Source of the DNA: Candidatus Saccharimonadota bacterium
GTDB lineage: Bacteria; Patescibacteriota; Saccharimonadia; Saccharimonadales; Saccharimonadaceae
Length of the DNA: 20,567 bases
NCBI GenBank assembly: GCA_030527565.1
Contig: JAUNAO010000007.1
Span: forward strand, 1 to 20,567
Direction: 5' to 3'
Shown here piece by piece: positions 3,130 to 19,427 of the stretch. Under the pieces are notes generated by a model. That model did no database searches, had not been told where the DNA came from, and was given only the letters and a program-made list of their open reading frames with translations. The position numbers and the translations under genes are program-made. The stretch's first letter is position 1. Every line of letters begins with the position of its first letter.

Positions 3130-3158
3130 ATTGTAGCAAATTGGCACTCGCGTGTCAA
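3130..3158 (-). promoter_or_regulatory. dnaK promoter
   Basis: Perfect -35 TTGACA (3158-3153), a 17-nt spacer, and -10 TACAAT (3135-3130) preceded by TGC, so also an extended -10. Predicted +1 is near 3123. The vegetative-type promoter plus operators indicates heat-shock control by derepression, not by an alternative sigma factor. Confidence 0.88.
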
Positions 3159-15882: not shown

Positions 15883-15911
15883 TTGACAAAATGGTTATGG
15901 TATGCTATAAT
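15883..15911 (+). promoter_or_regulatory. Consensus promoter of the structured RNA
   Basis: Perfect TTGACA (15883-15888), 17-nt spacer, perfect TATAAT (15906-15911) preceded by TGC. This is the strongest promoter in the window by consensus. Predicted +1 is about 15918. Confidence 0.92.
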
Positions 15912-16063
15912 TAGAAGATGGGGGTAATTCAAACTAATTAAAATTATGCTTGCATGAGTTTGAAAGGTTTGGTAGAATAGATACTATCGCTCGTGAATTC
16001 CCAAAATTGCGAGGAGTGGGTCGTAGGTCGTTTGAGCGAAGCATTAAGGAGAAAAATCGATAC

Positions 16064-16150
16064 ATGCGTATCAAAAGAGCAAAGCGTTCGGTTGAACGTC
16101 GCGCTACAAAAATTCCACCAGCAGAATGGATGGAATTTATAGAAATCTAG
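16064..16150 (+). CDS. Doubtful small basic ORF (28 residues) inside the structured transcript
   Basis: ATG 16064 starts MRIKRAKRSVERRATKIPPA and ends at TAG 16150. AAGGAG lies 12 nt upstream (16046-16051), longer than usual, and the ATG sits in the 4-nt loop of a perfect hairpin. The frame stays open upstream to TTG 15950 (66 residues) without a better start. Codons such as CGT, GCT and CCA differ from the GCG/CGG/CGA habit of most genes here and would fit a highly expressed small protein; they would also fit chance reading of an RNA gene. I recognise no family and could not match it to ribosomal protein bS21. Confidence 0.25.
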   Translation: MRIKRAKRSVERRATKIPPAEWMEFIEI

Positions 16151-16152
16151 TG

Positions 16153-16269
16153 GGAGCTAAACTAACTTCCACGCGAAACCCGCGAACAGCCCGTCTTTAC
16201 GGGTGTTCGCTCTGAAAACCCCGGCTCGGGGTTTTCTTTATGTTTCGCTTAGGAAGCTAGTTTAGCTTC
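16153..16269. repeat. Imperfect inverted repeat spanning the terminator
   Basis: GGAGCTAAACTAACTTCC (16153-16170) and the complement of 16252-16269 (GAAGCTAAACTAGCTTCC) agree at 16 of 18 positions. The left arm lies in the structured RNA. The right arm covers the last codons of the dsbA-like gene and its stop-side flank. Confidence 0.55.
16215..16241. terminator. Intrinsic terminator, probably bidirectional
   Basis: AAAACCCCG-GCT-CGGGGTTTT (16215-16235) then CTTTAT. It ends the structured RNA on the plus strand and lies 14 nt after the dsbA-like stop on the minus strand, where TTTT also follows the stem. Confidence 0.88.
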
Positions 16270-17046
16270 TACAATATTTGTAATTAACTCAGTTAGCTGG
16301 GATTTGGTCATGTTCTTTTCCCAAGTGAAGGTTTGGCCGTTAATTGTAATTGAGCCGCCGGTTAGGTCGATTTTTTGACCGTCAATAAAGAGAGATGGGG
16401 TGCTGTCGATGTCCATGCGTTGGCCGATGCCCATATCAAAGCTGATCTTTTTCGAGACGTTTTCGGAAGCGATGTCGGAATTGAACTTTTCGAGGTCGCC
16501 CTTACCTTCGGTTACTTCGACGAAGTATTTATTAAAGAGGTCGCCGCGTTCGGAACCGGTTGCGTAGAACCATTCACCTTGTTCCGAGAAGAGTTTATCG
16601 GCGTAGGCTTTCCAGTAGCCTTGGAGGCCGGCAGCTTCAGCAGCGGAAGCGGCGGCGGTTGCGTTTGTGTGGTAGCTTAAGAGGAAACTACGGTAGACAA
16701 TCGAGAGTTTTCCTTCGAGAGCGATGATGATGTCGTTTAGGTTTTCGTTCATACCAGCGCAGCCAGAACATTGGTAATCGGCATATTCGTAGATAATAAC
16801 GGGAGCTTTGCCGGCGATTTCGGGATTGTCGGTTACGGTGCCGGTAGCCTCGTCGTAGCCTTTGATATGGTCAGAGATGTAGCCGTTATGGGTATCGGCT
16901 TTGATGACCGAATAGAAATTGTAATCGTTGAAATTAGTTGCTTTGTTGTTCCCGTCAACGACGAGGTAAGTTGCGGCGCCGAGAAAAGCGACAATGGCGA
17001 GAGCGACGATAGCTCCGGCAACTGAGAAACCTGTTTTTTTCTTCAT
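16249..17046 (-). CDS. DsbA-like membrane-anchored thiol-disulfide oxidoreductase
   Basis: 265-residue protein with a Lys-rich start, one N-terminal membrane helix (about 7-30, uncleaved anchor or signal) and an external thioredoxin-like (Thioredoxin_4/DsbA) domain from about 80. The catalytic CSGC motif is at 93-96 (YADYQCSGCAGMN) and the cis-Pro loop is DSTPSLFIDG (Pro217). It should form or shuffle disulfides in exported proteins; the Cys pairs in the prepilin and in the FtsH external domain are possible local clients, which is inference. The start is ATG 17046 with AAAGGAG 4 nt upstream. Unlike its divergent neighbour it has a short leader of about 14 nt. Confidence 0.93.
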   Translation of the reverse strand: MKKKTGFSVAGAIVALAIVAFLGAATYLVVDGNNKATNFNDYNFYSVIKADTHNGYISDHIKGYDEATGTVTDNPEIAGKAPVIIYEYADYQCSGCAGMNENLNDIIIALEGKLSIVYRSFLLSYHTNATAAASAAEAAGLQGYWKAYADKLFSEQGEWFYATGSERGDLFNKYFVEVTEGKGDLEKFNSDIASENVSKKISFDMGIGQRMDIDSTPSLFIDGQKIDLTGGSITINGQTFTWEKNMTKSQLTELITNIVEAKLAS

Positions 17047-17666: not shown

Positions 17667-19427
17667 ATGAGAACGCTAACTGATAAATTAGAAGAATTTT
17701 TGGGTCAAGAAGTAACGGTGGAAGGCTGGGTGAATTCGCGGCGCGACCACGGGGGTTTGATTTTTGTCGATCTTCGGGACCATAAGGGATTAATTCAGTT
17801 AGTAATTACGCCAGAAACCGAGGAAGCGTTTAAGATGGCCGAAGGGGTGCGGGATGAATTTGTGTTGTCGGTCTCGGGGGTCGTTCGGGAACGGGAAGCG
17901 GGGCTTATTAATCCGAATATCCCGACAGGGAAGATTGAGTTAGTAGTTTCGAGTTTAACGATTTTGAACCGAAGCGAGACGCCGGTTGTGAATACGCATG
18001 ACGACGGGGAGAAATCATCGGAAGAGATGCGGCTGCGTTATCGTTTCTTAGACTTACGGCGGCCGTCGATGTTGAAGTTGTTGTCGGAGCGGGCGCGGTT
18101 CTATAGTTTTATGCGGGCGTATATGGAGAAGCACGAATTTATTGAAGTGACGACGCCGATTTTAGCAAACTCTTCGCCAGAAGGAGCGCGGGATTTTCTA
18201 ATTCCTTCGCGGCTACACCCAGGGAAATTTTATGCTTTGCCGCAGGCGCCGCAACAGTTTAAGCAACTTTTGATGGTCGGCGGGATTCCGCGTTATTATC
18301 AGTTAGCGCCATGTTTCCGAGATGAGGATCCGCGAGCGGATCGACTTTATGGGGATTTTTACCAGTTGGATCTCGAGATGGCGTTTGTTAGTGACGGTGA
18401 AGTTGTGCGGCGAGAGATGGAGCCTTTAATTAAGTCGCTCGTCACGGATTTTGCGGGGAAGAAATTATATTCGGAAGATGTACCGCGAATTCCTTATGTT
18501 GAAGCGATGGAGAAATATGGGGTTGATAAGCCGGATCTTCGTTATGGGATGGAGTTGATTGATTTGACTGAGGCTCTCGCGGGGACGGAGTTTAAGGTTT
18601 TCCAATCTGAATGCGTGAAGGCGATTTGTGTGAAGGGCGGGGCGAAATTGACGCGGCGCGAGATTGATGAGTTTACGGAACTAGCGCGGAAGAATGGTGC
18701 GGGTGGTTTAGCATATATATTATATACGGATGGAGAAGCGAAGTCGCCAATTGCGAAGTTCTTGACTGAAGCCGAGATGGCAGCGATTAAAGAAAAGACC
18801 GGTGCGGAAGAAGGCGATGCGGTGTTCTTTGGGGCGGATAAGCGTGCGAAGGTAAATAAAGTTTTAGGACAACTTCGGACCCATTTTGCGGACCATTTCG
18901 GTTTGAAAGATCCGAACGTTGTCGCGCTGTGTTGGATTGTGGATTTTCCATTTTATGAATGGGATGAGAAAAACCGGAAGTTAGATTTCGGACATAATCC
19001 GTTTTCGATGCCGAAGGGCGGAATGGCAGCGCTAGAAGCGGCAGAGACGAATGAAGAAAGACTTGCACTGATTGCGGATCAGTATGATATGGTGATGAAC
19101 GGGTACGAGATTTGTTCGGGCGCGGTACGGAACTATAATCCAGAGATTATGTACAAGGTGTTTAACATCTTAGGGTTTAATAATGAATATGTTGAGGCGC
19201 GATTTGGCGGGATGTTGAATGCGTTTAAGTTTGGTGCGCCACCGCACGCAGGTTGTGCGTTTGGGATTGAACGGATTTTTATGGTCCTCAATGATACGGA
19301 AAATATTCGTGATATTGTTGCGTTCCCGAAGAACGGGGCGGGGGTTGATTTGATGATGAATTCGCCATCTACTGTTGACCAGTCGCAACTTGATGAGGCT
19401 CATCTTGCGATTATCCCAGAAGAATAG
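17667..19427 (+). CDS. aspS: Aspartyl-tRNA synthetase, bacterial type
   Basis: Class IIb synthetase that charges tRNA-Asp. The 586 residues show an N-terminal anticodon-binding OB fold (VEGWVNSRRDHGGLIFVDLRD), motif 1 region (RYRFLDLRRPSML), motif 2 with YYQLAPCFRDEDPRADR (210-226), the bacterial GAD insertion (about 290-410), GHNPFSMPKGG, and motif 3 FGIERIFMVL (GIER at 533-536). After RADR most bacterial enzymes read QPEFTQxD; here it is LYGDFYQLD. Whether it also charges tRNA-Asn cannot be decided from what I see. Start ATG 17667 follows an extended -10 by 7 nt. It lies directly upstream of ileS, which has its own promoter. Confidence 0.97.
   Translation: MRTLTDKLEEFLGQEVTVEGWVNSRRDHGGLIFVDLRDHKGLIQLVITPETEEAFKMAEGVRDEFVLSVSGVVREREAGLINPNIPTGKIELVVSSLTILNRSETPVVNTHDDGEKSSEEMRLRYRFLDLRRPSMLKLLSERARFYSFMRAYMEKHEFIEVTTPILANSSPEGARDFLIPSRLHPGKFYALPQAPQQFKQLLMVGGIPRYYQLAPCFRDEDPRADRLYGDFYQLDLEMAFVSDGEVVRREMEPLIKSLVTDFAGKKLYSEDVPRIPYVEAMEKYGVDKPDLRYGMELIDLTEALAGTEFKVFQSECVKAICVKGGAKLTRREIDEFTELARKNGAGGLAYILYTDGEAKSPIAKFLTEAEMAAIKEKTGAEEGDAVFFGADKRAKVNKVLGQLRTHFADHFGLKDPNVVALCWIVDFPFYEWDEKNRKLDFGHNPFSMPKGGMAALEAAETNEERLALIADQYDMVMNGYEICSGAVRNYNPEIMYKVFNILGFNNEYVEARFGGMLNAFKFGAPPHAGCAFGIERIFMVLNDTENIRDIVAFPKNGAGVDLMMNSPSTVDQSQLDEAHLAIIPEE

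Follow-up and report, generated by a model that had tools for sequence, protein, structure and literature searches.

Ribosomal-protein mRNA leaders can bind their own product. The locus described here resembles such autoregulated leaders in that the mRNA of a small, often basic protein carries a covarying structure, a stem, upstream of its ribosome-binding site (stem-swap test, in which the relatedness of the sequences is ignored). It differs from them in two respects: no match above chance level links the small protein to a known ribosomal protein, and 14 of 83 entries from the genus have lost the leader. bS21 is a small bacterial protein that begins with MP and has basic segments, and small size, an MP start and basic segments are what the small proteins have in common with it. 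The small proteins were not among the matches to PF01165, and 28 of 30 genomes, that of the window included, gave a separate match to this family (19 of them over the curated cut-off); bS21 was accordingly rejected.

The 3' part of the locus may be compared with two other systems. Like intrinsic terminators, its inner hairpin 2 with a T-rich tail scores as a terminator-like site; unlike them, this hairpin forms a single arm within a three-part structure that is itself repeated. REP/REPIN and MITE-type repeats (PMC3116915, PMC3733652, PMC6382973) are likewise short, dispersed, hairpin-forming and bounded by inverted-repeat ends, and several dispersed copies with terminal inverted repeats were found here. 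Compared with them, the present one is ~106 bp long, has two inner arms, and has an outer stem that differs in sequence between sites yet pairs. As to the bacteria themselves, which are ultrasmall and depend on a host, the Saccharibacteria ribosome is said to be without three otherwise conserved proteins, and a 2024 perspective expects translation control to be key to Patescibacteria differentiation (PMC11665869).

The window, i.e., the whole stretch of 20,567 nucleotides that was analysed, is part of contig C49 in a 595-kb genome. The region under study is very probably a single-gene transcription unit giving the mRNA of a 28-aa protein, this degree of confidence covering the identity of the mRNA and excluding function. 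The coding identity of the small protein is well supported: it is unannotated and represents a new family of a known kind, widespread in its order. The locus also comprises a conserved leader and one copy of a structured dispersed repeat, and a putative leader-based regulation is supported by comparison. The features are as follows.

15883..15911, + strand: upstream promoter TTGACA-17-TATAAT with TG extension (12/12 match)
15950..15978, + strand: conserved promoter TTGCAT-17-TAGAAT, extended -10 TTTGgTAGAAT (81/83 distinct genus entries)
15986..16050, + strand: 5' leader of the small-protein mRNA, its start placed from the -10 box
15987..15992, + strand: leader closing stem, 5' strand TCGCTC, covarying with 16034-16039
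16026..16030, + strand: leader-loop motif GGTCG, towards the 3' end of the loop (GG[TC]CG counts)
16034..16039, + strand: leader closing stem, 3' strand GAGCGA (covariation)
16046..16051, + strand: Shine-Dalgarno AAGGAG (similar sequence in 66/69 leadered genus entries)
16059..16072, + strand: start-codon hairpin GATAC-ATGC-GTATC, the ATG being part of the loop (predicted fold and genus pattern)
16064..16150, + strand: small gene, 28 codons and stop TAG, MRIKRAKRSVERRATKIPPAEWMEFIEI (homology, synonymous bias)
16157..16262, + strand: dispersed-repeat copy with terminal inverted repeats and two inner hairpins, folding as a closed stem with two arms
16182..16210, + strand: repeat inner hairpin 1, GCGAACaGCCCGTctttACGGGtGTTCGC (17-copy covariation)
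16214..16236, + strand: repeat inner hairpin 2, the terminator-like site (17-copy covariation)
16249..17046, - strand: convergent DsbA-like thioredoxin-fold gene (PF13462, E 6.1e-22), its stop codon inside the repeat

In this arrangement, the promoter at 15950-15978 is followed by the leader with its covarying closing stem, the Shine-Dalgarno sequence, the ORF at 16064-16150 and the terminator-like site, which in this strain belongs to the dispersed repeat. Comparison with related loci established the promoter, the closing stem, the Shine-Dalgarno sequence with the ORF, and the terminator-like site. The mRNA would start near 15986, and the extra upstream promoter would give an additional, longer transcript. 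The leader with GGTCG may bind something and so tune translation, the ligand possibly being the small protein itself.

The small gene and its family

Single-base codon differences were scored in the 28-aa ORFs that begin with MRIK (32 of 83), using the 303 closest pairs, which are non-independent. In the frame of the small gene 70% of the differences were synonymous, compared to 15% and 14% in the other two sense frames. The antisense frames gave 13%, 44% and 14%, the 44% frame being, as we read it, the one whose third positions coincide. For the C-terminal half of the protein, the in-frame value was 82%. Lengths of the family members ranged from 26 to 33 aa, and the differences were of whole codons (in-frame indels). 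Such a length is near or under the usual limit of gene callers. When 40 related genomes were searched with the DNA, a conserved block was obtained that ended, in the best relatives, where the 66-codon frame ends, and similarity at the protein level starts at the ATG at 16064. Since protein-level conservation begins only at this ATG, a 49-aa frame (15993-16142) was discarded, and so was the part of the 66-codon frame that extends further 5'. A start codon, a ribosome-binding site, synonymous bias and protein-level conservation were all found for the small gene. A terminator-like site lay within 120 nt past the ORF in 67 of 83 genus entries.

The distribution of the family was examined with profiles. 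Profile A1, made from 13 proteins of the genus, matched 94 of the 392 genomes of the order. By our own count, 78 of the 88 sampled genomes of the genus were matched, including that of the window, with a single match in all but two; no A1 protein match was obtained in the remaining 10 of 88. Profile A3 (nine proteins of other genera) matched 128 of the 392 genomes, which we counted as 12 from the genus, 85 from other genera of the family and 31 from other families of the order. In both searches, matches near E 0.01 may be due to chance; the weak A1 matches L114 and L115 were judged to be such and were dropped. Members in other genera had MPIAIEFVPSRRKKIAVDVVPAEWQLYIAQ or a similar sequence, and more distant members MPVKIKVMNSRGTRVEVRVRRPSWQQFLQY or similar. 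Profile A4 was run on 379 genomes of the phylum and matched 25, the two from outside the order being weak (E 0.007 and 0.009); its match in the window's own genome was also weak and lay elsewhere in that genome. The family looks confined to its order, with the reservation that proteins of this length readily escape detection (those of the genus, for instance, were not recovered with A4). Relatives occur in Candidatus Saccharibacteria/TM7, including a complete TM7i chromosome and an oral-taxon-352 strain. Since Saccharibacteria genomes are very small, a gene this widespread in the order likely matters.

Loci whose protein was identical to one already taken were dropped before the counts. Among the loci kept from other genera of the family, L108, L109, L111 and L112 repeat L121, L123, L125 and L129, and L113, L117, L118 and L120 repeat L127, L130, L131 and L128. 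Without these duplicates the 142 synteny entries correspond to 134 places and the 39 motif entries of other genera to 31; duplicates were removed for the promoter, stem-swap and terminator tallies. The 20 distant entries are L151-L170, one of which (L154) comes from the window's own family. Genome G344 carries two different copies of the small gene (L033 and L061), possibly reflecting two strains or a true duplication.

Curated collections gave no match to the small protein (Pfam, NCBIfam, PDB or Rfam). In Pfam, the best value among 13 members was E 0.084, to the mS41 SAM domain and in one member only, while for 23 further members no match appeared up to E 1. In NCBIfam, the 13 A1 proteins were without any match. 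Against the PDB, profile A1 had no match up to E 1, and profile A4 had a single one, to a viral structural protein (E 0.44). When 5.8 billion proteins were searched with an open frame of 49 aa from L141, 54 were retrieved; a Pfam domain was absent from all of them, and so was any name except hypothetical protein. Many of the 54 have a start extended upstream (e.g., P0010), implying that gene finders do sometimes call the gene. A search of titles and abstract openings, with few subscription journals covered, yielded no paper tied to the protein, the leader or the repeat. In the searched text of PMC10633639, there is no mention of small proteins, small ORFs, short or unannotated genes, or of anything noncoding. 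A gene this short would be easily missed by transposon screens.

The protein has a basic N-terminal part and a C-terminal motif, PAxWQ. Mean net charge was +4.7 in the genus, +5.1 in distant members and +1.1 in family members outside the genus; genus proteins have no cysteine, and a tryptophan was present in 83 of 83. AlphaFold2, run on alignment A6 (60 of 122 listed proteins), gave an extended chain with a short C-terminal helix at a mean pLDDT of 75 and a pTM of 0.20, the latter too weak for a fold search. A peptide that takes up its fold on binding to a partner might well give such a model. Taken together, the charge, the residue content and the AlphaFold2 model point tentatively to a ribosome- or RNA-associated subunit that would fold on a partner and be under leader-based control; this is the least certain step of the scheme, and we consider it possible rather than probable. 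A more specific proposal, which we regard as rather unlikely, is that translation in this order involves an unrecognised subunit found nowhere else, the small protein, added to the ribosome that is said to be without three proteins, the GGTCG leader being a new cis-regulatory RNA for its self-limitation.

Promoters, leader and the nature of the transcript

Of 83 distinct genus entries, 81 gave a promoter-like match at the place equivalent to 15950-15978, the typical form being CTTGCA-N17-TTTGnTAGAAT. A TTGACx/TATAAT promoter further upstream was seen by eye only in the window and in L002 among the matches listed.

An earlier note had read the region as a hairpin-rich transcript with a strong promoter, an intrinsic terminator and no recognisable RNA family. 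The strong promoter at 15883-15911 was confirmed as the sole 12/12 match of its type in the window. The dnaK promoter, given there as the next best, was recovered as a minus-strand match at 3158, just upstream of a dnaK-like ORF, and is the sole other match of at least 11/12. A predicted terminator site is present at 16214-16236, in agreement with the note. At the gathering score, Rfam gave only tRNAs in the window, and in the region there was no match at this score to tmRNA, RNase P, SRP, 6S or riboswitches. The best non-tRNA match in the region was CRISPR-DR40, at 26.7 bits vs a cut-off of 42, and when the region and 18 related loci were searched permissively, nothing came near a cut-off. 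As to the abundance of hairpins, a 322-nt stretch did fold better than its dinucleotide shuffles (z -4.03 and -4.45 in two runs), but the excess came mainly from the 3' repeat: 16157-16262 alone gave z -7.46, the stretch without the repeat -1.26, and the ORF alone -3.13. The leader of the window folded like its shuffles (z 0.09 and 0.05 in two runs).

Other parts of that reading changed. For the ORF, said there to lack a good start, AAGGAG (16046-16051) is followed by an ATG in frame, at 16064. The pseudoknot suggested between TTTGG (15968-15972) and CCAAA was set aside because its TTTGG arm lies within the spacer of the second, conserved promoter at 15950-15978; a transcript from this promoter would be without that arm. 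The note would have given up its undescribed non-coding RNA if homologous loci combined synonymous-biased substitutions in the 28- or 66-codon frame with a lack of covariation in the stems. The first was observed, strongly and in the 28-codon frame, and the suggestion fails on it; the second was not, as the stem that the note named, TCGCTC/GAGCGA, covaries. A conserved RNA structure probably does exist, as the 5' leader of an mRNA.

In this leader, the first bases pair with the bases just 3' of the GG[TC]CG motif, forming a closing stem. Examples from other leaders are GTTGGTTC/GGACCAAC, TTGACTC/GAGTCAA, GTCTCTTTAC/GTAGAGAGAC and TGCGTCTC/GGGACGCA. When alignment A5 (MAFFT; 34 of 67 listed leaders) was folded with RNAalifold, only 4 pairs were obtained, at -0.43 kcal/mol, a result due in part to rows whose 3' strand is misaligned. 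In its place we took a stem-swap test, in which each leader's own strands were compared with strands swapped between leaders. Only leaders with both a promoter match and GG[TC]CG were taken, viz. 61 of 83 from the genus and 32 of 39 from other genera of the family, the latter becoming 23 once duplicates were removed. For the 61 genus leaders, the value was 16.87 with their own strands vs 14.06 when swapped (0 of 5000 permutations), and for the 23 leaders of other genera 18.35 vs 13.73 (0 of 5000), the permutations ignoring the relatedness of the sequences.

In the 110 nt next to the ATG, GG[TC]CG was present in 60 of 83 entries from the genus and, for other genera of the family, in 35 of 39. 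It was found in 3 of 20 distant entries, and in 70 of 546 upstream background windows. The distance from the -10 box to the ATG had a median of 94 nt in leadered genus entries. In 14 of 83 it was 7-10 nt (L012, L053, L055, L061, L062, L066, L068, L069, L074, L075, L078, L088, L091 and L095), so that the mRNAs of these entries would be leaderless; the leader is therefore dispensable in some lineages. The pattern GATAC-N(0-5)-GTATC, with the start codon in the loop, occurred in 42 of 83 genus entries. The leader is probably cis-regulatory, and as a conserved element it offers a direct handle on translation control in these bacteria. Some leaders are unusual in form. Those of L082-L085 and L089 contain the segment AGGTCGATTGGTTCTAATGG, a repeat of the GGTCG motif. 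Those of L006, L033 and L035 are 138-140 nt long, with a segment inserted between the TGGG and GGTCG parts; in L006 and L035 the inserted segment has the complementary parts CCTATATGG and CCATATAGG.

Three other readings of the transcript were weighed against that of a small-protein mRNA. A non-coding structural or regulatory RNA, in which the ORF would be incidental, is in keeping with the strong promoter, the terminator-like site, the lack of any Rfam match and the covariation of the leader stem, and the ORF segment does fold better than shuffles in this one sequence. This reading is largely refuted already by the frame-specific synonymous bias. The codon statistics (a synonymous fraction of 0.70 in frame vs 0.15 and 0.14 in the other sense frames) led us to reject a stand-alone non-coding RNA; length changes, moreover, are in frame, and amino acids are conserved across the order while the leader is lost in some entries of the genus. 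We find it barely credible.

It is very unlikely that the ORF encodes a regulatory leader peptide, with a downstream gene controlled by its translation or by stalling at the C-terminal motif. The ORF is indeed short and its leader structured, conservation is strongest near the stop codon, and a few members (L013, L084 and L096), in which such control is conceivable, have a close downstream gene in the same direction. Against these stand the terminator-like site that comes next in 67 of 83 genus entries, the usual neighbour, which is convergent, and the extra residues past the motif in several members (e.g., L086, L100 and L103), which do not suit a position-exact arrest. There is, finally, a slim chance of a dual-function RNA, i.e., a small-protein mRNA with an added role in trans for its leader or its 3' part: leader and ORF are separable and both conserved, and this strain has the strong extra promoter. 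Among 30 genomes, on the other hand, the exact leader pattern of the window had a single occurrence in the window's genome and was seen elsewhere only in G010 and G015, at the orthologous locus. The preferred reading remains that of the mRNA of a 28-aa protein.

The dispersed repeat and the neighbouring genes

The ~106-bp repeat gave nine matches in the window's genome (G000), one of them partial, and more in G015. In the search of 40 genomes, the repeat part was matched, as we read it, only in these two. Alignment A7 was made from 17 copies of G000 and G015, the latter having additional matches. The copies include that of the window (16157-16262) and L014, L015, L017-L020, L022-L030 and L263.

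As folded, the copy in the window contains 39 pairs. Over the 17 copies, 91.4% of the cells were able to pair, compared to 76.5% when the 3' letters were shuffled, and 26 of the 39 pairs changed on both sides, compared to 15.3 in the shuffles; neither value was reached by any shuffle (0 of 500). Sliding the partners by one column lowered the pairing to 47-49%. Further pair types did not exceed those of the shuffles (34 vs 37.2). In hairpin 1, 9 of 12 pairs changed on both sides and 85.3% of the cells were paired over the 17 copies, with frequent loss of pairing in the middle (columns 30 and 52, unpaired in 12 of 17 copies). In hairpin 2, 5 of 10 pairs changed on both sides and 99.4% of the cells were paired. 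Of 109 cells with a pair other than the commonest one, 108 had changed on both sides and one was a one-sided change of the G-U type. Such scarcity of G-U pairs in the arms is unusual for selection on RNA. Their near-absence suggests that the arms may be kept complementary at the DNA level, e.g., via template switching during replication or use of single-stranded hairpins.

Beyond the inverted repeats common to the copies, the flanks of a given copy tend to pair as well and so extend the outer stem, though they differ among copies (8.2 of 10 positions vs 5.6 when swapped; 0 of 5000 permutations). Flanking alignment placed L263 of G000 and L017 of G015 at the same site, and both retain the outer stem with some of its letters differing. 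Insertion of the repeat into existing palindromes is possible. In the window copy, the outer stem extends into the last codons of the DsbA-like gene. For the L022 copy, G004 and G010 matched both flanks but not the repeat between them; in G004 the stretch is too diverged to define the site, and no clean empty site was found in this comparison. At L002, the orthologous gap of G015, an ordinary terminator hairpin is followed by a piece resembling, by eye, the right end of the repeat. The repeat is a separate, strongly covarying case of a short dispersed element kept folded at different sites.

A convergent DsbA-like gene accompanied the small gene in 106 of 142 entries (99 of 134 places when recounted without duplicates) and in 13 of the 20 distant entries. 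It was present beside relatives of very low similarity (L155, L158-L160, L162, L163, L166, L169 and L170), and this conserved position supports the orthology of distant, low-scoring members. Pfam thioredoxin/DSBA domains were verified for L155, L163 and the window, and in these three the next gene has a CBS or CNNM domain. None of 13 neighbouring proteins scanned was ribosomal. The small gene is also kept where the neighbours differ, so that a direct tie to DsbA is not required. At L084 no DsbA-like gene was found, and the small gene is followed by one for a tRNA synthetase of class II (D, K and N type). In the window, an ORF named from its sequence as aspartyl-tRNA-synthetase-like (17667-19427) lies two genes further on.
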